Shown piece after piece: positions 10,097 through 19,557 of a DNA stretch of 64,000 nt. The position numbers were made by a program, and so were the translations under genes. The notes under the pieces are model-generated. The model was not told the DNA's origin and did no database searches. It saw only the letters and a list, made by a program, of their open reading frames with translations. This DNA comes from Thermogemmatispora onikobensis (lineage in GTDB: Bacteria; Chloroflexota; Ktedonobacteria; Ktedonobacterales; Ktedonobacteraceae): the NCBI RefSeq assembly GCF_001748285.1, contig NZ_BDGT01000037.1:1-64000 (forward strand). Direction: 5' to 3'. Positions within the stretch are counted from its first letter, which is position 1. Each line of letters begins with the position of its first letter.

Positions 10097-12490
10097 TCAG
10101 GGTGTGACCCCCAGGTCCTTACGGATAAGAAGCCCCATCGGATAATAGCCGGCGTCCTCTCCTATGGGCTGACGCTGCCACCACCAGGCCCAGATGCGTT
10201 CGGCGGCCAGCACTGGATTGAAGTGCGCCCCCGGCGGCGGATTGTCTCCATAGCTGAGCCACAGCAGCGGCCCTACTCCAACATAGGGGGCCGGCGGCCC
10301 ACATTGCTGCTTGGCGCTGGGAATGCAGGGAGGCGGCATGTAACCCTGATCCCACCACGAGCGCATCTGATACTGATGATAGAGGTAATCGCCATTGGGG
10401 CCAGCGTATTGCTGTGGGAGACCGTTGGCGATACTATCGCCCCCCGCAATGATAACAGGAATGTTTTTAGCTATGGCCGGGCAGCCATTGGGATACTCCA
10501 GACAAACGTTGGGATAGTCGCGCAGGTACCAGATCAGCGGCCAGGTTGCATCATCGGTGAGTCCGATGGCGAGCTGATGGCGACCGCCATCCAGCTTGCG
10601 ATCCAGCTCGTCAATCTTGGCCATCACCCTGTTTACATCCACCGTCGTCTGCACATAAATCAGCATCTCATGCGGCGCATCCGCCTCGTAGACATACGTC
10701 ACTTCGTACATATTGTGCACCGTCGGCACCAGCAACACTATCCCCGCCAACACCGTCAGCAGCCCCCACTCCAGCCTCCCTCTCCCCCCTCTCTCCTCCC
10801 TCGGCTCCCACTCCTCTCTCCTCTCTCGCCAGCGCTTCCAGCCTTCCTGCAGCCAGCTCACCACCAGCTGCACCCCCGGCTCCAGGCCAATCCCCGCCAG
10901 CAGCAGCAACGGCAAAGTGATATGGATCGTCAACCACGGCATCTTCTCCGCCGCCCACGAGTACAGCACCAGGTTCCCCACGCACCAGTACACCAGCCAC
11001 AACCGCAGCCGCGTCGGCCTCAGCAAACAGCGCACCAGTCCCACTATCCCAAAGACCACCCCCACCTGCTCATAGAGCGGGATCAGCAGCAGATAGTAGT
11101 ACCACGGCTGCCCTCCTCGCGCAACCTGCTGCTGCTCAAGCCAGTAGTAGATACCGGCCCAGATGCCATCGCCAATGCCGCCCCTGATATTGGTAAAGAG
11201 GACCGTAAAGAGGACCAGGAAGACGGCCCAGAAGAGCAAGAGCCCAAAGAACCAGTGCGTCCAGGGCATCTTCACCAGCGTCGCCAGCACCGGCTGCCTC
11301 TCCTCATCCACCCAGCGCGCGAGACCACGCCGCTGCCGTTGACGAGCTGCCTCCACTGCCGCCTCCCCCTGGAACATCTCCCGCAGCAAGATCACCAACA
11401 CCACCAGACCCAAAGCGATGCCCAGCCAGGGAATCACCTGCACGGTGCGATCCTTCAACGCTGCCACGAAGGCGTCGGATACTTGTTGATGGGTTGTAAT
11501 GTAGATCGAGAGATTATGAAGCCAGCGGAAGAGCAGGAGCGCCACCACTCCACCGATCAGGGCATAGGCCAGCAGCAGTAACGGCGCCCACGTCCTCGGC
11601 AGCCAGCCCGGCTCTCCCTCCACCTTCTCCCTCAGTCCCCAACGACTCCCCAGCTCCCATACCAGCACTCCCCCCCCATAGCTGCCCACCACCGCTATCG
11701 TCAAAAACGTCGCCTCCTTCGTCGCATACGACAACGCCAAGCCCAGCACCCCCACCAGCAGCCAGCCCAGCTTCCTCTCTTGCCCATACCTCACCAGTCC
11801 CACCACCAGCAACAGCGTGAAGCAAGCCATGTAGATATCCTCGCGCGCAAACCGCGAGTAGTACACCAGGCTCGGCGACACCGCCAGCAGCACCGTCGCC
11901 AGCCAGGCCGCTAGCCGCCCTAGCGAACGCCTCAACAGATACGGCAGCCCCACCATCACCGTTCCCAGCGTCGCCGCCAGCAGACGCACCGTCGTCGTAT
12001 TCACCCCGTTATCGGGCACACCCACCAGCTGCGCCAGCTTGTAGACCAACGCCATCGCATGAAACTGAAATGGTCCATGCAACAGCGGGTCATAGTGATA
12101 GCAATCGCCGAAGGCGAAACAATGCTCCCAGTTCGCAAGCTGATTCATCAGCTGAAGGGAGAAGTAGGCGTGGAGACTCTCATCGTGGTGCAGCGGGCGG
12201 ACTCCCAGATCCCAGAAGCGCAACACTGCCGCCACCACCAACACCACCCCATACGCCACCCACTCTAGAATCTGCCCACGGCTAACGGTTTTCGCCCGGT
12301 CAGCACCACCACGAGCCTGAGAGAGAGGCTGGTCATCCTGACCTGCTTCGACAGGCTGCACAGCTTCTTGCGTGCTCACAGGCGTATTCTCCTGCTCTTG
12401 AATCTCAACGGGCAGCTGTTGAGACCCAGATGACGTTGCCTCAGCGCATTCTTCAGCAGGAGATCGCGCATGCTCTCCTTTCAAGTCCAA
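10097..12490 (-). CDS. Agl23-like (TIGR03663-type) polytopic membrane protein, copy B
   Basis: A 797-residue integral membrane protein with GT39/PMT-like N-terminus. VLRFWDLGVRPLHHDESLHAYFS places the acidic catalytic-type motif in the first extracytoplasmic loop. About a dozen hydrophobic segments follow and then a ~200-residue extracytoplasmic C-terminus. The ~75-residue hydrophilic N-tail is poorly conserved with copy A. The start is TTG 12490, preceded by AAGGAGA six bases upstream; GTG 12379 is an alternative. Family members co-occur with DUF2298 proteins in Chloroflexi and Archaea and are linked to glycan assembly on lipid carriers. It is last of four minus-strand genes and nearly identical in DNA over long blocks to copy A. 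Confidence 0.85.
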   Translation of the reverse strand: MDLKGEHARSPAEECAEATSSGSQQLPVEIQEQENTPVSTQEAVQPVEAGQDDQPLSQARGGADRAKTVSRGQILEWVAYGVVLVVAAVLRFWDLGVRPLHHDESLHAYFSLQLMNQLANWEHCFAFGDCYHYDPLLHGPFQFHAMALVYKLAQLVGVPDNGVNTTTVRLLAATLGTVMVGLPYLLRRSLGRLAAWLATVLLAVSPSLVYYSRFAREDIYMACFTLLLVVGLVRYGQERKLGWLLVGVLGLALSYATKEATFLTIAVVGSYGGGVLVWELGSRWGLREKVEGEPGWLPRTWAPLLLLAYALIGGVVALLLFRWLHNLSIYITTHQQVSDAFVAALKDRTVQVIPWLGIALGLVVLVILLREMFQGEAAVEAARQRQRRGLARWVDEERQPVLATLVKMPWTHWFFGLLLFWAVFLVLFTVLFTNIRGGIGDGIWAGIYYWLEQQQVARGGQPWYYYLLLIPLYEQVGVVFGIVGLVRCLLRPTRLRLWLVYWCVGNLVLYSWAAEKMPWLTIHITLPLLLLAGIGLEPGVQLVVSWLQEGWKRWRERREEWEPREERGGRGRLEWGLLTVLAGIVLLVPTVHNMYEVTYVYEADAPHEMLIYVQTTVDVNRVMAKIDELDRKLDGGRHQLAIGLTDDATWPLIWYLRDYPNVCLEYPNGCPAIAKNIPVIIAGGDSIANGLPQQYAGPNGDYLYHQYQMRSWWDQGYMPPPCIPSAKQQCGPPAPYVGVGPLLWLSYGDNPPPGAHFNPVLAAERIWAWWWQRQPIGEDAGYYPMGLLIRKDLGVTP

Positions 12491-12597
12491 GTGAGGTCTC
12501 CTTCCAGCGTAGAGTCAAAGTTGGTACTGCCTGATTCAGCCTTTCCCGCGTCAGGCCCCGTTCTACTCACTCAAGGCCCTTATTGGGTGCTGGCCAC

Positions 12598-14931
12598 TCA
12601 TGGAGCAACACCCAGGCCCTTCTTAATAAAGAGGCCCATATCGTAAGCACCATCGGTCGCCCCAAAGGGCTGGCGCTGCCACCACCAGGCCCAGATGCGT
12701 TCGGCGGCCAGCACTGGATTGAAGTGCGCCCCCGGCGGCGGATTGTCTCCATAGCTGAGCCACAGCAGCGGCCCTACTCCCCCCCAGGTTTGCTGTCCTG
12801 CGCAATTATCGTTAGCCTTGCTCGGCAGACACGGGGGCGGTTTATAGCCTTCATCCCACCACGTACGCATGTGGTACTGATGGAAAAGATAGGCGCCCGT
12901 ATGCGTGGCGGTATCAGCATACTGGGTCTCAGCCAGATAGAGATTGTCCCCCCCGGCAATAATGACAGGGTAGCTACTGGGATTAGGGCAATCTGCAGGG
13001 TAATTATAGCAGGCATGGGGATAGTCGCGCAGGTACCAGATAAAAGGCCAGATTGCATCGTTCATGACGCCGATGGCGAGCTGATGGCGACCGCCATCCA
13101 GCTTGCGATCCAGCTCGTCAATCTTGGCCATCACCCTGTTTACATCCACCGTCGTCTGCACATAAATCAGCATCTCATGCGGCGCATCCGCCTCGTAGAC
13201 ATACGTCACTTCGTACATATTGTGCACCGTCGGCACCAGCAACACTATCCCCGCCAACACCGTCAGCAGCCCCCACTCCAGCCTCCCTCTCCCCCCTCTC
13301 TCCTCCCTCGGCTCCCACTCCTCTCTCCTCTCTCGCCAGCGCTTCCAGCCTTCCTGCAGCCAGCTCGCCACCAGCTGTACCCCCGGCTCCAGGCCAATCC
13401 CCGCCAGCAGCAGCAACGGCAAAGTGATATGGATCGTCAACCACGGCATCTTCTCCGCCGCCCACGAGTACAGCACCAGGTTCCCCACGCACCAGTACAC
13501 CAGCCACAACCGCAGCCGCGTCGGCTTCAGCAAACAGCGCACCAGTCCCACTATCCCAAAGACCACCCCCACCTGCTCATAGAGCGGGATCAGCAGCAGA
13601 TAGTAGTACCACGGCTGCCCTCCTCGCGCGACAGCAATCTGCTCGATCCAATAGTACAGACCCCCCCAGATACCATCACCAATGCCAGCCCTGACATTGG
13701 TAAAGAGGACCGTAAAGAGGACCAGGAAGACGGCCCAGAAGAGCAAGAGCCCAAAGAACCAGTGCGTCCAGGGCATCTTCACCAGCGTCGCCAGCACCGG
13801 CTGCCTCTCCTCATCCACCCAGCGCGCCAGTCGCAAACGCCATCCTCCACGGCCAGCCTTCACTGCCGCCTCCCCCTGGAACATCTCCCGCAGCAAGATC
13901 ACCAACACCACCAGACCCAGCGCCACCCCTAGCCAGGGGACGACCAGGGACGTATCGTCCTTCAGCACAGCGACAAATTCATCGGAGACGCCCTGGTGAG
14001 CAGCAATATAGAACGAGAGATTATGTAGCCAACCCAGAAGCCATTTGGCCAGAACGGCCCCGACCAGAGCATAGGCCAGCAGCAGCAACGGCGCCCACGT
14101 CCTCGGCAGCCAGCCCGGCTCTCCCTCCACCTTCTCCCTCAGTCCCCAACGACTCCCCAGCTCCCATACCAGCACTCCCCCCCCATAGCTGCCCACCACC
14201 GCTATCGTCAAAAACGTCGCCTCCTTCGTCGCATACGACAACGCCAAGCCCAGCACCCCCACCAGCAGCCAGCCCAGCTTCCTCTCTTGCCCATACCTCA
14301 CCAGTCCCACCACCAGCAACAGCGTGAAGCAGGCCATGTAGATATCCTCGCGCGCAAACCGCGAGTAGTACACCAGGCTCGGCGACACCGCCAGCAGCAC
14401 CGTCGCCAGCCAGGCCGCTAGCCGCCCTAGCGAACGCCTCAGCAGATACGGCAGCCCCACCATCACCGTTCCCAGCGTCGCCGCCAGCAGACGCACCGTC
14501 GTCGTATTCACCCCGTTATCGGGCACACCCACCAGCTGCGCCAGCTTGTAGACCAACGCCATCGCATGAAACTGAAATGGTCCATGCAACAGCGGGTCAT
14601 AGTGGTAGCTCAAGATATTCAGCGACAGCTGAAGGGAGAAGTAGGCGTGGAGACTCTCATCGTGGTGCAGCGGGCGGACTCCCAGATCCCAGAAGCGCAA
14701 CACTGCCGCCACCACCAACACCACCCCATACGCCACCCACTCCAGAATCTGGCTGCGGGACGGTCTTTGACGGCGCATAGCACGTCCGGGAGGCCAGTGA
14801 CTCGCCATCCTCTCCTGTTCAAGCGAGTCCGTCTGCTCAGCAACCACTCCAGCCAGCAGCTCGCTCTGATCCGACTGACTATCTACAGGCTGATGCTCAA
14901 ACCTCTTCAAATTCAAGGCCCAACTCCTCAT
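12598..14931 (-). CDS. Agl23-like (TIGR03663-type) polytopic membrane protein, copy A
   Basis: A 777-residue paralogue of the next gene downstream, with the same PLHHDESLHAYFS motif, the same membrane segments and an extracytoplasmic C-terminal domain ending PPGAHFNPVLAAERIWAWWW. Differences cluster in the N-tail, in a ten-residue insertion after LHAYFSLQL that copy B has and this copy lacks, in two or three loops, and in a stretch near the C-terminus. The gene starts 31 bases after the DUF2298 gene stops and ends 107 bases before copy B, consistent with an operon. A GT-C-fold role on an undecaprenyl- or dolichyl-type substrate is inferred from the family, not shown. Confidence 0.86.
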   Translation of the reverse strand: MRSWALNLKRFEHQPVDSQSDQSELLAGVVAEQTDSLEQERMASHWPPGRAMRRQRPSRSQILEWVAYGVVLVVAAVLRFWDLGVRPLHHDESLHAYFSLQLSLNILSYHYDPLLHGPFQFHAMALVYKLAQLVGVPDNGVNTTTVRLLAATLGTVMVGLPYLLRRSLGRLAAWLATVLLAVSPSLVYYSRFAREDIYMACFTLLLVVGLVRYGQERKLGWLLVGVLGLALSYATKEATFLTIAVVGSYGGGVLVWELGSRWGLREKVEGEPGWLPRTWAPLLLLAYALVGAVLAKWLLGWLHNLSFYIAAHQGVSDEFVAVLKDDTSLVVPWLGVALGLVVLVILLREMFQGEAAVKAGRGGWRLRLARWVDEERQPVLATLVKMPWTHWFFGLLLFWAVFLVLFTVLFTNVRAGIGDGIWGGLYYWIEQIAVARGGQPWYYYLLLIPLYEQVGVVFGIVGLVRCLLKPTRLRLWLVYWCVGNLVLYSWAAEKMPWLTIHITLPLLLLAGIGLEPGVQLVASWLQEGWKRWRERREEWEPREERGGRGRLEWGLLTVLAGIVLLVPTVHNMYEVTYVYEADAPHEMLIYVQTTVDVNRVMAKIDELDRKLDGGRHQLAIGVMNDAIWPFIWYLRDYPHACYNYPADCPNPSSYPVIIAGGDNLYLAETQYADTATHTGAYLFHQYHMRTWWDEGYKPPPCLPSKANDNCAGQQTWGGVGPLLWLSYGDNPPPGAHFNPVLAAERIWAWWWQRQPFGATDGAYDMGLFIKKGLGVAP

Positions 14932-14962: not shown

Positions 14963-17344
14963 CTATGACAGCACGACCTTATAGATTGTCACACCCTCAG
15001 CGGAGTAGACGACCTGTAAGAACGAAGGGAAGTGACCAAGATTGATCGTCTGATACTTCGCCAACTCCAGCGGTCCCACATAGACATAGGTCACATGATA
15101 AAGCGTCAGCAGCGAGCGGACAACATTGGCTTGAGGACTGGTATAGATCGTTGCTACATCGCTGGCTCGTCGGTTAAAATCGGCGGCATAGGCCAGATTA
15201 TTCAACCAATTCACCCGCCACTGATACTCATGGCCAACCCAGCCCATAATGGTCGGCAAGCCAGTAAAGGCCGAGACATGAGCGTAGTCGCTATAGTCCG
15301 GGCCAACCGCCTCCACAATGACAGGGTCGCCATCGACATGGGTATTCAGCCAGCGAATCGCTGCATAATCGCTGGGATCGGTCTGGGAAAGATAGGTCAG
15401 CCCATCCAGGCTATTGCTCCGTTGCGCGAAATGCTCTGTGCGGGCATAGCTTCCGGCCACTGGATAGACCGCTCCAGCCAGCAACAAGAGGCAAAGGGCC
15501 GCCGTCCACACCACCTGCAGACCCTCGGACAGCAGACGCTGCAGCGGCGCCACCATCTCCCCAGGACGCAGGGCCTCCAGGATAAAGAAGAGAGCAGCCC
15601 CACAGGCAATTGAGAGCTGAGCCCACGACTGGAAATAAAACTTAAAGACCGTATTCATGCGTGGGTAGCTATCGGCAAAAACATCGCGCAGATAGAACAC
15701 CTCACAGCCGGCCACCAGAGCAAAAGCCAGCGAGCCAAGCAACAGGGTAAAAGCCAAGGCCCTATCGCGCAGGTGAGAGAGGACCAGAACAGCCCCCACT
15801 GCCGCCAGAACGCCCGCCGCCACAAATGTACCGCTATTGCGCATCAGAAGCAGCGTCAGCAGGCCCAGCAGAGCAATCACCCAGAAGCTCAACCACTGAG
15901 CGCTGAAGCGCACCAACCACTTGAGCCAACCGGGAGCAGAAGCAGCCGAGGTCTCTTCCTTCTCCGTGGCGGCCTCCTCCTCAGCAAAGGCGGGCAATCT
16001 GGCCACACCCGCCACCAGCAGAGAGAGAAAGACGAAAGCGAACAGGCCATAGATCAGAATCTCTTGGCCCGGGGACGAGCGATCAGCAGGACCAACCACC
16101 CCGATTCCCTGAGATGGCGACACAAAGCTCAAATAGAAAGGCAAATAGAAGGCCAGCGAGAGAATGATCAGGGGAATCGCCGCCGCAGCAACATCCACCA
16201 GGAATGTCCCCCGGAAGCGGCGCCCATGAATCAACCACTGTTGTAGAGCAATACAGACCAGGGTCAGGCCCAGATAGGTCGGATAATCCCAACCATTCAT
16301 CGTGAAGAGGGCCCCGATGACCAGTGCTGTCGCGCCCAGGGTCAACGGCAGACGCCAGCCACGTCCAAAGATGAAGATCCCCAGCCCCTCACGTTCCAGG
16401 AAGAGATTGAAAGCCAAAGCGATCGCCAGAATCGTGAACGCCAGAGCCAGCACATGGGCATGGAAGCAGGAAAGCAGAAAGCTGAAAGCGGGGAATTCAT
16501 TGATCGTCTTATCAACCACCCGTGAGGGGGCAAACCAATCGAACTGACTGAGGTCGCCATGATCACGCCACCACTGCTGCGTTGCGGCCAGATTGCCCAG
16601 TATCAAACCGAGCGCCATTGTCAGCAGTCCGTAAGGGATAGCTGCCGTCAGGCGCGGGAAAGTCTGAGCTGGCGCCTCAGCACGTCCATCATCAGGGGGT
16701 AAGCCAGCAGCACGGGCATGCCTGGCCCAGGCGATGATATTGCAGGTCACGCCGAAGAGGTTCACCGCCGTCAGCCCGAAGAAGACACAGATCCCTGTAT
16801 TAAAAGCGATAGACGGGGATTGTCCCAGCAGCTTTGCCAGTACCACGATCGTAAAGTGAGCGTAGTAGTAGTAATTGATCGGGTAGCCAGCATACCACAT
16901 ATCATTTGGCGGTAGATGAGGACTGCGCATAATTGCAGCAATAAAGCCCTCATCCATGAACATCTCAAAGCCGCGGATATCAGGGCCATAGGAGCGAATC
17001 CAGCCGAGCAAAAAGACCATGCCCAGGAAGACCAGCTCGCAACCGACCAGATAGACCACATTCGCACGCACCAGCTTGAAGAGCGTCGCACGCATCAGCA
17101 GCAGGCCCGCAAGAGCAGGGATCAGCAGCAGCACGAAGACGCCGGCGATGAAGGCGCGGCTGAAGGGCCACGAATGGACGCACATCAAAGGCAGCCACAC
17201 ACAGAAAGCGAAGAGCGCCAGCGCCAGGGCCTTGCTAAAGGCCCAGCCGCGGTCTGGGAGGTTGCACAAGACCGTGACAGTCAATGGCAGGCAGAGCAGG
17301 CCCAGCAGCTCCACCAACGCCCACATCAAGAGCAAGTCAAGCAT
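14963..17344 (-). CDS. DUF2298 / Chlor_Arch_YYY integral membrane protein
   Basis: A 793-residue, strongly hydrophobic protein with roughly 15-18 predicted membrane segments. The family's tyrosine-run motif is present as YPINYYYYAHF (~145-160), preceded by DEGFIAAIMRSPHLPPNDMWYAG. These belong to the Chlor_Arch_YYY family (TIGR03662, DUF2298), which is sporadic in Archaea and Chloroflexi and typically encoded near Agl23-like genes, as here. Function is not established; a GT-C-like or flippase-associated glycan role fits the neighbours. It contains a ~35-residue Glu/Ala-rich cytoplasmic loop (EEEAATEKEETSAAS). The ribosome site is weak. Confidence 0.87.
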   Translation of the reverse strand: MLDLLLMWALVELLGLLCLPLTVTVLCNLPDRGWAFSKALALALFAFCVWLPLMCVHSWPFSRAFIAGVFVLLLIPALAGLLLMRATLFKLVRANVVYLVGCELVFLGMVFLLGWIRSYGPDIRGFEMFMDEGFIAAIMRSPHLPPNDMWYAGYPINYYYYAHFTIVVLAKLLGQSPSIAFNTGICVFFGLTAVNLFGVTCNIIAWARHARAAGLPPDDGRAEAPAQTFPRLTAAIPYGLLTMALGLILGNLAATQQWWRDHGDLSQFDWFAPSRVVDKTINEFPAFSFLLSCFHAHVLALAFTILAIALAFNLFLEREGLGIFIFGRGWRLPLTLGATALVIGALFTMNGWDYPTYLGLTLVCIALQQWLIHGRRFRGTFLVDVAAAAIPLIILSLAFYLPFYLSFVSPSQGIGVVGPADRSSPGQEILIYGLFAFVFLSLLVAGVARLPAFAEEEAATEKEETSAASAPGWLKWLVRFSAQWLSFWVIALLGLLTLLLMRNSGTFVAAGVLAAVGAVLVLSHLRDRALAFTLLLGSLAFALVAGCEVFYLRDVFADSYPRMNTVFKFYFQSWAQLSIACGAALFFILEALRPGEMVAPLQRLLSEGLQVVWTAALCLLLLAGAVYPVAGSYARTEHFAQRSNSLDGLTYLSQTDPSDYAAIRWLNTHVDGDPVIVEAVGPDYSDYAHVSAFTGLPTIMGWVGHEYQWRVNWLNNLAYAADFNRRASDVATIYTSPQANVVRSLLTLYHVTYVYVGPLELAKYQTINLGHFPSFLQVVYSAEGVTIYKVVLS

Positions 17345-17691: not shown

Positions 17692-19557
17692 CTAAGGCGT
17701 CGAGAAGGCACAGCTCAGCGAACTGACAGGCTGGGGCTGGGGCCAGTGCACTCCAGCCACGAGCTTCTCAAAGAGCTGTTGCGGCGTATACGGATAGGGA
17801 GTATCACGCACAAAGACGCGAGCGACCGGATGGTCAAAGACCGAATAACTCTCATCGGCTCCGCTGTCGTCGAGCGTAATACCAAAGAGATGCGGACGCA
17901 CCACAAACTGAGCAGCCAGACGGAAACCCAGCTGTTCACTAAACAGAAGCTGATAGTAGCGAATCGTGAGCGGATAGCGTGCAGGCAAGCGCGGGATCGA
18001 CTTGTCGAGGCGATCAGTAGGCATCGTAATCGCATCGATTGTCGGCAAGAGCCTGGCCAGGGTACAGGCCTTCTGCGGTGTATCATCTCCATAGAGATCC
18101 AGGCCAGTTTGAGGCTGGCCAGCAGCGTTCAAATAGGTTGCCTGCCGATAGAGACCGGGATCGTGCCCATCAACCGGCACAGGTAAAGGATCATCCCACT
18201 GCTCGTAGGTCAACACACTGCCCGGTGGCAGATGCGCATAAATCCAGCGCGAAGCCATTACTCGCGTATTTGGCTCGCTATATACATTCAACAAAGCCAG
18301 CCCCTGAAAGATCGTGCCAGCCAAAACCACCCCCACTAGTCCATAGCCAACAACGCCCGCCAGGTGCCCGCGGCCCATTCCAGCCTTATCCTGGACCTGG
18401 ACCCGGCTGCTCGTTAGCCAGCGCTCCAGCCAATCCTGAAGCTGCAGCAACAGAAGCGCGGCCAGCAAGGCGAGGAAAGGATAGAGCGGCAGCATATAGC
18501 GCATAAACTTGACGTAGAAACTGCCCGTAATAGCGCCGTAGATCACGATCCAGGAGAGCGGAACCAGCCAGGCTGAGAGCAGGCGGTGTCTGAGCAGATA
18601 CCAACAGAGCCAGAGCAAGCCAGCCAGGGCCGCCAGACCCAATGTCAGGCCCTGGCCCCACAGGACCATATTCTGCAGCTCGTAAAGATAGGGGGTCGTA
18701 CCAGCGAACTGGCGCACATAGGGCAGATCGATCAGACCGCGGGCCAGGTCCCCCTGAAACGAGACCTGCTGGAGAAAGTCCCGCGCATCGAGCAAAGCAT
18801 AGGGCATGGTCACAAAGAAGACCAGTCCAGTCGTGGCCAGCGAGAGTGCAAACAGACCCCAGCCATGCAGGGAGCCTTGACGCCACCAACGCAGTCCAAA
18901 AGCCAGCGCCAGAGGCACGATCAAGGGAGCCGCGCTAAACTTAGTCGCGAGCGCCAGGCCATAGCCCACACCGGCCAGGAGTGCCCAGCGGAGTGGCCGC
19001 TCACTTTTGACCAGAGCTACACATGCCAGCACGGTGAGAGTGACAAAAAAGACCAGAATGGTATCGACGGCATAAAAATGTGAGAGCTGTAACTGCAGGG
19101 GAGTAAACACCATCAAGGCGGCAGTCAGCAAAGCCACCACCCAGGAGCGAGGCCGGCCCGGCTGTTCGTCTTCCACCAAGAAGAGCGCCAACAGAGCGGT
19201 GAGCGCAATGGTCCCACTATCAAAGAGGGCCGAAATCACGCGGCCTAACAGTGTGAGCGCGGCAAAATTTGCCAGAGCGGGGAAGAACGGCTTCAGGACC
19301 GTGCCCACCGCAGCCAGCAGATAGATCGGGAACGAGCCGTAAGCAAAGAACTGTGGATTCAGAGGAGAGTGAGCGGCGTCCAGAAACTGGGCCCAGCTGG
19401 TGGGCCGAGCGATCGCCACCACGTGAAAGAGAATCTCGCGCTCATCGGGATGGAAACTATTACCATCATCCCAATTCAGACCATAGAGGCGAAGCGCTAA
19501 GCCGAGCACCGTCAAGGCGATCAGCGCAAGTGGACGCCAGCGAATAACAAGCTTCAC
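17692..19557 (-). CDS. GT39/ArnT-like phospholipid-carrier-dependent glycosyltransferase
   Basis: A 621-residue polytopic GT-C-type membrane protein. The first helix is followed by LRLYGLNWDDGNSFHPDEREILFHVVA; the D/E motif (HPDERE) in loop one is the PMT/ArnT-type catalytic site. About ten to eleven further hydrophobic segments and an extracytoplasmic C-terminal domain follow. It would transfer a sugar from a polyprenyl-phosphate donor on the outer face of the membrane. The start is GTG 19557 with AGAGG upstream. It heads the minus-strand glycosyl cluster, but a 347-base gap separates it from the DUF2298 gene, so it may be a separate transcript. Confidence 0.87.
   Translation of the reverse strand: MKLVIRWRPLALIALTVLGLALRLYGLNWDDGNSFHPDEREILFHVVAIARPTSWAQFLDAAHSPLNPQFFAYGSFPIYLLAAVGTVLKPFFPALANFAALTLLGRVISALFDSGTIALTALLALFLVEDEQPGRPRSWVVALLTAALMVFTPLQLQLSHFYAVDTILVFFVTLTVLACVALVKSERPLRWALLAGVGYGLALATKFSAAPLIVPLALAFGLRWWRQGSLHGWGLFALSLATTGLVFFVTMPYALLDARDFLQQVSFQGDLARGLIDLPYVRQFAGTTPYLYELQNMVLWGQGLTLGLAALAGLLWLCWYLLRHRLLSAWLVPLSWIVIYGAITGSFYVKFMRYMLPLYPFLALLAALLLLQLQDWLERWLTSSRVQVQDKAGMGRGHLAGVVGYGLVGVVLAGTIFQGLALLNVYSEPNTRVMASRWIYAHLPPGSVLTYEQWDDPLPVPVDGHDPGLYRQATYLNAAGQPQTGLDLYGDDTPQKACTLARLLPTIDAITMPTDRLDKSIPRLPARYPLTIRYYQLLFSEQLGFRLAAQFVVRPHLFGITLDDSGADESYSVFDHPVARVFVRDTPYPYTPQQLFEKLVAGVHWPQPQPVSSLSCAFSTP

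Follow-up and report, generated by a model that had tools for sequence, protein, structure and literature searches.

Gene Content of the Locus

The window, i.e., the whole 64,000-nucleotide stretch of the Thermogemmatispora onikobensis genome that was analysed, contained two Agl23-like genes lying head to tail, namely copy A and copy B, 3′ of genes for a YYY/DUF2298 protein and a PMT-like glycosyltransferase (Table 1). Against the NCBIfam model TIGR03663 "Agl23" the two copies scored 261 and 263.5 bits, both above the curated cut-off of 126.25 bits. Pfam PMT and PMT_2 matches also exceeded their cut-offs at the sequence level. An earlier reading of the DNA, made without database searches (the sequence-only reading), had described tandem Agl23-like paralogues here, and both its coordinates and its reading were right.

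T. carboxidivorans and T. aurantia carried this tandem pair too, next to the same neighbours. An Agl23 match was present in 27 of 29 family genomes, and a wider search of relatives gave 50 of 61. The YYY gene was apparently also duplicated in tandem in several relatives (loci L042, L044, L047, L060, L062, and L068).

Table 1. Genes and segments of the tandem pair and its upstream neighbours. Positions are those of the window; residues are those of copy A.
Feature	Position	Strand	Counterpart in copy B	Remarks
Copy A, Agl23/TIGR03663, downstream gene	10097..12490	-		797 aa; TTG start; profile match
Copy B, Agl23/TIGR03663, upstream gene	12598..14931	-		777 aa; profile match
YYY/DUF2298 membrane protein (TIGR03662)	14963..17344	-		Upstream neighbour, kept across the group
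PMT-like glycosyltransferase	17692..19557	-		Upstream, kept neighbour
Variable N-terminal tail, residues 2-72	12275..12487	-	about 14752-14931	Low model confidence
Converted block 1, residues 76-114	12149..12265	-	about 14626-14742	TM1 and start of HHDES loop; 117-nt identical run; repeat D3
Variable first extracytoplasmic loop, residues 114-130	12101..12151	-		NW..C..C motif; mostly deleted in B
Converted block 2, residues 132-304	11579..12097	-	about 14086-14604	Identical runs of 162, 109, and 245 nt
Variable middle segment 1, residues 312-358	11417..11557	-	about 13924-14064	
Variable middle segment 2, residues 380-389	11324..11353	-	about 13831-13860	Probably cytoplasmic
Converted block 3, residues 391-434	11189..11320	-	about 13696-13827	132-nt identical run
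Variable middle segment 3, residues 435-455	11126..11188	-	about 13633-13695	Probably extracytoplasmic loop
Converted block 4, residues 457-643	10562..11122	-	about 13069-13629	Identical runs of 103, 147, and 297 nt; includes a probably cytoplasmic loop with indels between species
Variable C-terminal segment, residues 644-737	10280..10561	-	about 12781-13068	In C-terminal soluble domain
Converted island, residues 738-773	10172..10279	-	about 12673-12780	Flanked by two variable segments; 107-nt identical run; repeat D2
Variable C-terminal end, residues 776-796	10103..10165	-	about 12604-12666	

Mosaic Identity Between the Two Copies

Copies A and B shared 555 identical codons out of 763 aligned. 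In the sliding codon alignment, 20-codon windows at 97-100% nucleotide identity were interspersed with windows at about 33-88%; divergence fell in blocks and was not uniform along the gene. This alignment, a check that the sequence-only reading had proposed, bore out, together with the shuffles, its account of near-identical blocks alternating with diverged segments. The converted blocks were 98-100% identical in DNA, silent sites included. Positions 10565-11115 and 13072-13622, for which few differences had been reported, differed at 3 of 551 bases. The longest run of identity between the copies was 297 nt, and the maximum in 2000 shuffles of the same differences was 85 nt. The identical runs of A above the 99% shuffle threshold made up the five converted stretches of Table 1, with three runs each in residues 132-304 and 457-643. 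The amino acid differences formed the clusters given there as variable segments (three clusters within residues 644-737), and isolated differences were found at residues 491 and 544.

Identity followed the membrane segments as a tendency: 17 of 254 residues in hydrophobic segments differed between A and B, compared with 149 of 543 other residues. The proposal that helices are homogenised and exposed parts differ held to this extent and failed as a rule, as variable segment 312-358 includes helix ends, segment 380-389 probably lies in the cytoplasm, and the copies were identical in the exposed loop 556-568. Sidedness of the loops was read from the positive-inside rule rather than computed. The loop near residue 556, probably cytoplasmic, varied between species by indels as long as 30 nt and was identical between the copies within each genome, so exposure by itself does not spare a loop.

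Between the HHDE and YDP motifs, 29 of 32 family rows had a cysteine-bearing loop, with varying spacing and some varying residues. The three rows without it were the three Thermogemmatispora B proteins. Because all rows other than Thermogemmatispora B have the loop, the difference reflects a deletion of about ten residues in B and no gain in A; what had first been taken for a ten-residue insertion in A is ancestral.

Comparison With Orthologues

In a sliding comparison of six genes, core windows of the copies within a genome were nearly always 95-100% identical, and those of orthologues mostly 81-98% (window and T. carboxidivorans). In variable windows, with the gapped T. aurantia pair left out, orthologues were mostly 80-100% identical and copies mostly 42-75%. 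The quartet of window and T. carboxidivorans genes contained 248 sites supporting the paralogues and 111 sites supporting the species, arranged in 15 runs; the minimum in 10000 shuffles was 126 runs.

For converted codons, dS between copies was 0.050 (window) and 0.044 (T. carboxidivorans), compared with 0.217-0.257 between orthologues of these two species; these converted-block values are somewhat overestimated, as the "coreM" block (residues 366-389) contains the variable cluster 380-389. For variable codons, the copies were at dS 1.79 and 1.65 and the orthologues at 0.219-0.251. Silent differences in converted codons numbered 19 of 392 between copies and 73 of 388 between orthologues (Fisher 8e-10), and in variable codons 122 of 179 between copies and 38 of 200 between orthologues (1e-22). 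In the converted codons, copies within a genome were thus closer to each other than to their orthologues, in genes that are themselves orthologous, which is the mark of concerted evolution.

Taken by themselves the core blocks look recent (dS 0.05), as they would if each species had duplicated the gene recently and its variable segments had later been replaced by foreign or shuffled DNA. However, the variable segments are orthologous between species, with silent divergence equal to that of the core (0.219 vs. 0.217 in A; 0.251 vs. 0.257 in B). Gene order and neighbours are identical in the Thermogemmatispora loci that reach them, and the C-terminal paralogy extends to other genera (see below). 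Independent recent duplications were ruled out by the silent sites, and we regard this account as extremely improbable.

Strong selection on core DNA or codons could keep two copies alike without recombination, and the core is indeed conserved at the protein level. Yet the very same core blocks carry the silent differences counted above between orthologues and far fewer between copies, and the residue-556 loop has lengths that differ between species and agree within each genome. The silent sites ruled out codon-level selection, to which we assign a negligible probability.

Concerted evolution of the pair is strongly supported, with conversion recurring after speciation and sparing the same segments in the readable Thermogemmatispora species. 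The ongoing conversion proposed from the DNA alone thereby gained strong support, as recurrence after speciation, from the orthologue comparison, the trees, and the run shuffles. The mosaic was fully readable in two Thermogemmatispora species and in Ktedonosporobacter rubrisoli; the pairs of T. aurantia, T. tikiterensis, HOG59, and HOG45 were gapped or broken at the repeat.

Assembly Status of the Pair

The window assembly is probably short-read: the T. onikobensis NBRC 111776 draft was sequenced on MiSeq and comprises 112 scaffolds and 5,556,501 bases (PMC5064121). Reads of two diverged genes collapsed in shared blocks could mimic a mosaic, and the pair is interrupted by N gaps in T. aurantia and T. 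tikiterensis and by contig ends in the HOG59 and HOG45 MAGs. Breaks at the repeat are, however, expected of real near-identical repeats in short-read assemblies. Moreover, the same kind of mosaic occurred in T. carboxidivorans (a single 5.6-Mb contig with "quiver" in the record title) and in K. rubrisoli (record titled complete genome), and the middle variants were assigned to the same copies in the window and in T. carboxidivorans. An assembly artefact is very improbable on this evidence.

The T. aurantia downstream copy (L040:8443-11098) contained a stretch of N and a repeated joint and appears frameshifted, more likely through an assembly gap than because the gene is broken. Because of this gap and joint, the long near-perfect identity between the T. 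aurantia copies was unusable, and T. aurantia was dropped both as a third clean case and as a case of apparent middle-segment overwriting. Its upstream copy was retained in the trees, the Bw/Ba comparison, and the GC3 rows. In T. tikiterensis, 3837 N extended from inside the upstream to inside the downstream copy (L063:6451-10287). The HOG59 (L064, L065) and HOG45 (L069) contigs ended inside the pair, as a real near-identical repeat would give.

Phylogeny of Separate Blocks and Distribution of the Mosaic

Trees of 32 family rows were built for separate blocks: the core, the C-terminal segments, and the middle segment. The core tree grouped the copies by species, with support of 100/99 for the window, 100/98 for T. 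carboxidivorans, and 100/100 for K. rubrisoli. In the C-terminal tree, copy A joined the Dictyobacter, Tengunoibacter, and brp13 downstream copies plus three other rows, with support of 95/96 under LG and 99/94 under a mixture model, the latter tree having one long row omitted and slightly narrower blocks. The block-by-block phylogeny suggested by the sequence-only reading thus gave different histories for the core and the C-terminal segment. An AU test of a Thermogemmatispora-only clade on the C-terminal segments rejected that clade under the mixture model (p 0.014) and did not reject it at 0.05 under LG (p 0.056), so the age of the duplication leans on a short alignment. By the best tree, with moderate support, the C-terminal paralogy would predate the split from Dictyobacter and Tengunoibacter. 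In the middle-segment tree the five Thermogemmatispora rows fell together, with the copies split inside. This tree suggests that the middle segment was last converted before the Thermogemmatispora radiation.

Long identical tracts occurred in three of nine adjacent pairs: beside the 297 nt of the window, T. carboxidivorans had 590 nt and K. rubrisoli 441 nt (shuffle maxima 82 and 66 nt). The remaining six adjacent pairs (Tengunoibacter, two Dictyobacter, Thermosporothrix, brp13, and MGR248) had no long tracts, with runs of at most 34 nt, and conversion is therefore not required for the family. The runs of D. kobayashii, Thermosporothrix, and MGR248 were slightly above nearly all shuffles, which conserved codons can explain. 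A tenth pair, non-adjacent and with its copies on different contigs of one MAG, had no long tracts either. The test was confined to pairs that were neither gapped (as in T. aurantia and T. tikiterensis), broken (HOG59), nor cut (L051), and it omitted L052, in which the downstream copy, that of Dictyobacter vulcani, is split across two frames (L052:8308-10808).

In K. rubrisoli the middle segments were not spared (dS 0). The segments spared in both Thermogemmatispora and K. rubrisoli were only three: the N-terminal part, the first loop, and the C-terminal domain. K. rubrisoli has a similar mosaic, independent of that in Thermogemmatispora. It also had a distant third copy of Agl23 that is interrupted by in-frame stops and is probably a pseudogene (L054:5845-8331).

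Residues diagnostic for copy 1 or copy 2, taken from four unconverted pairs, occupied 21 columns, nine of them in the core. In the core columns both window copies had four copy-1-type and two copy-2-type residues, too few to decide the direction of conversion. In the ten C-terminal columns, window B had six copy-1-type and two copy-2-type residues and window A had one and five, in agreement with the trees; K. rubrisoli copy 2 scored 6 to 1, contrary to the trees.

Constraint on the Spared Segments

Between orthologues, dN/dS of the variable segments was 0.127 (A) and 0.169 (B). Amino acid-changing sites between species in the C-terminal segment numbered 3 of 228 (A) and 3 of 237 (B), compared with 43 of 815 and 41 of 814 in the two large core blocks (p 0.009 each), while silent rates between species did not differ between this segment and the core. 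The segment most clearly different between the copies is, by these counts, the one with the least change along each copy line. Constraint on the N-terminal tail was weaker, with dN of 0.052 and 0.085.

Selection appears to preserve an old A/B difference and not to diversify it, because no part of the proteins is better conserved between species than the variable C-terminal segment. Selection for different substrate or partner specificity, as first suggested for this locus, therefore stands only in the form of purifying selection acting over the long term on two versions that already differed; there was no sign of ongoing diversification. Rapid change of the variable segments, the mark of diversity-generating or antigenic-variation cassettes, was not seen between species, where the segments are conserved (dN/dS 0.13-0.17). 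Diversifying selection and cassette switching were ruled out by the low orthologue dN/dS.

Conversion could also be real and the spared segments merely too drifted to recombine, with no selection on function. Converted stretches retain long identity and spared ones none, so the pattern would maintain itself, and the middle segments are spared in Thermogemmatispora only. This neutral account does not anticipate that constraint between species is strongest in the spared C-terminal segment of both copies, that the short first-loop difference persists between flanks identical for more than 100 nt on each side, or that K. rubrisoli spares the same three parts. Neutral escape is unlikely in our judgement, and selection on the spared segments is the preferred reading.

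Predicted Fold and Function

The model of copy B had a pLDDT of 72.8 and a pTM of 0.73. It matched yeast OST (Z 24.9, 446 residues, 6.7 A rmsd) and ArnT (Z 24.7, 343 residues, 3.3 A rmsd), with further structural matches to other OST, AglB, ALG, and PMT chains. The model of copy A had the same mean confidence, with low confidence in the N-terminal tail and part of the first loop. A sequence search of solved structures returned one weak match, to a designed protein. The membrane core is predicted to be a GT-C fold of the oligosaccharyltransferase/ArnT-like kind. Structure prediction, likewise suggested beforehand as a way to place the variable segments, put the C-terminal ones after the last long membrane helix.

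Residues D103 and E104 of copy A were invariant in 32 of 32 rows and follow the first membrane helix in the model. They are candidates for the catalytic acidic residue that GT-C glycosyltransferases carry in the first extracytoplasmic loop. The two proteins are presumably GT-C-type enzymes or transporters of polyprenyl-phosphate sugars, with a shared core that would handle the lipid-linked sugar and spared segments that would set what each copy acts on or binds. Substrate or partner specificity likely resides in the variable segments.

A transport role is also possible by analogy. Haloarcula hispanica Agl23 is reported to move lipid-linked oligosaccharide in liposomes (PMC11182771). It bears the same family name as the TIGR03663 model matched by both copies. 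The H. hispanica protein is archaeal, and its likeness to the window pair is one of family name.

Base Composition

Third-position GC (GC3) in the five Thermogemmatispora rows was 0.80-0.82 in converted and 0.57-0.65 in variable segments (N-terminal tail omitted); four neighbouring genes had 0.655-0.705. After amino acid matching, the GC3 excess was 0.102-0.185 in the five Thermogemmatispora rows, 0.072-0.078 in the two K. rubrisoli rows, and on average 0.019 (range -0.078 to 0.102) in 25 other rows taken as unconverted; the U test counts related rows as independent and is descriptive only. The excess persisted among non-helix residues of A (0.781 vs. 0.613). In the neighbouring genes the helix excess after amino acid matching was 0.073 (YYY) and 0.016 (PMT). 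The signal fits GC-biased conversion but draws on a small number of independent lineages, and the five rows include T. aurantia, with the assembly gap in its other copy. It is possible, though doubtful, that bacterial GC-biased gene conversion can be measured within genes in this natural pair. If the signal holds, the pair would be a controlled test of such conversion.

Proposed Origin of the Mosaic

An old tandem duplication followed by recurrent conversion of the core and purifying selection on the spared segments is, in our view, a highly probable explanation. The duplication would have given two GT-C-type membrane proteins that diverged into the A and B versions. Homologous recombination, presumably RecA-type gene conversion, between direct repeats whose starts lie about 2.5 kb apart would repeatedly overwrite one gene with the other and so homogenise the membrane core. 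Overwriting of the N-terminal tail, the first extracytoplasmic loop, and the C-terminal soluble domain, and in Thermogemmatispora of the three middle segments too, would be purged by purifying selection, since the A and B versions would have different jobs. Those jobs may lie in the choice of acceptor or partner, with the core binding the polyprenyl-phosphate sugar. Segments with no remaining similarity would be poor substrates for recombination, making the pattern self-reinforcing, and the boundaries would be maintained by selection and not by loss of homology alone.

One bacterial gene pair thus shows homogenisation together with differences apparently kept by selection, the spared difference being much the older. 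The spared segments indicate where the functional difference between the two proteins would lie. A tree built from the whole gene is misleading for a pair of this kind, because the core and the C-terminal segment have different histories.

Comparison With Known Systems

No prior report of this gene pair was found in the open-access literature searched. Segmental conversion with a spared part has been described for mtrA-1/mtrA-2 of methanogens (Wang et al., 2015; PMC4632066). These are likewise ancient tandem duplicates in one operon, with the main domain homogenised in each genome by recurrent conversion, another part different, and separate lineages involved. In mtrA, the difference is one added transmembrane domain derived from gene fusion. 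The window pair, in contrast, has equal full-length architecture with several short spared segments between converted blocks, and its membrane core is converted and its soluble domain spared.

A survey of long-lasting recurrent concerted evolution in prokaryotes reported 26 genes (Wang and Chen, 2018; PMC6053082), with at least five species of an order as its criterion. Neither Agl23 nor any glycosyltransferase appeared in its two gene tables. Its cases resemble the window pair in that paralogues are closer within a genome than to orthologues over several species; the survey stresses identity over nearly the full gene length (PMC6053082), whereas that of the window pair is segmental. Mammalian TLR1/TLR6 are tandem receptor genes in which conversion limits divergence, and they are animal immune receptors (PMC2077338). 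The Agl23 pair joins this known kind of evolution as a new case, notable for its several alternating spared segments and for recurring in two genera.
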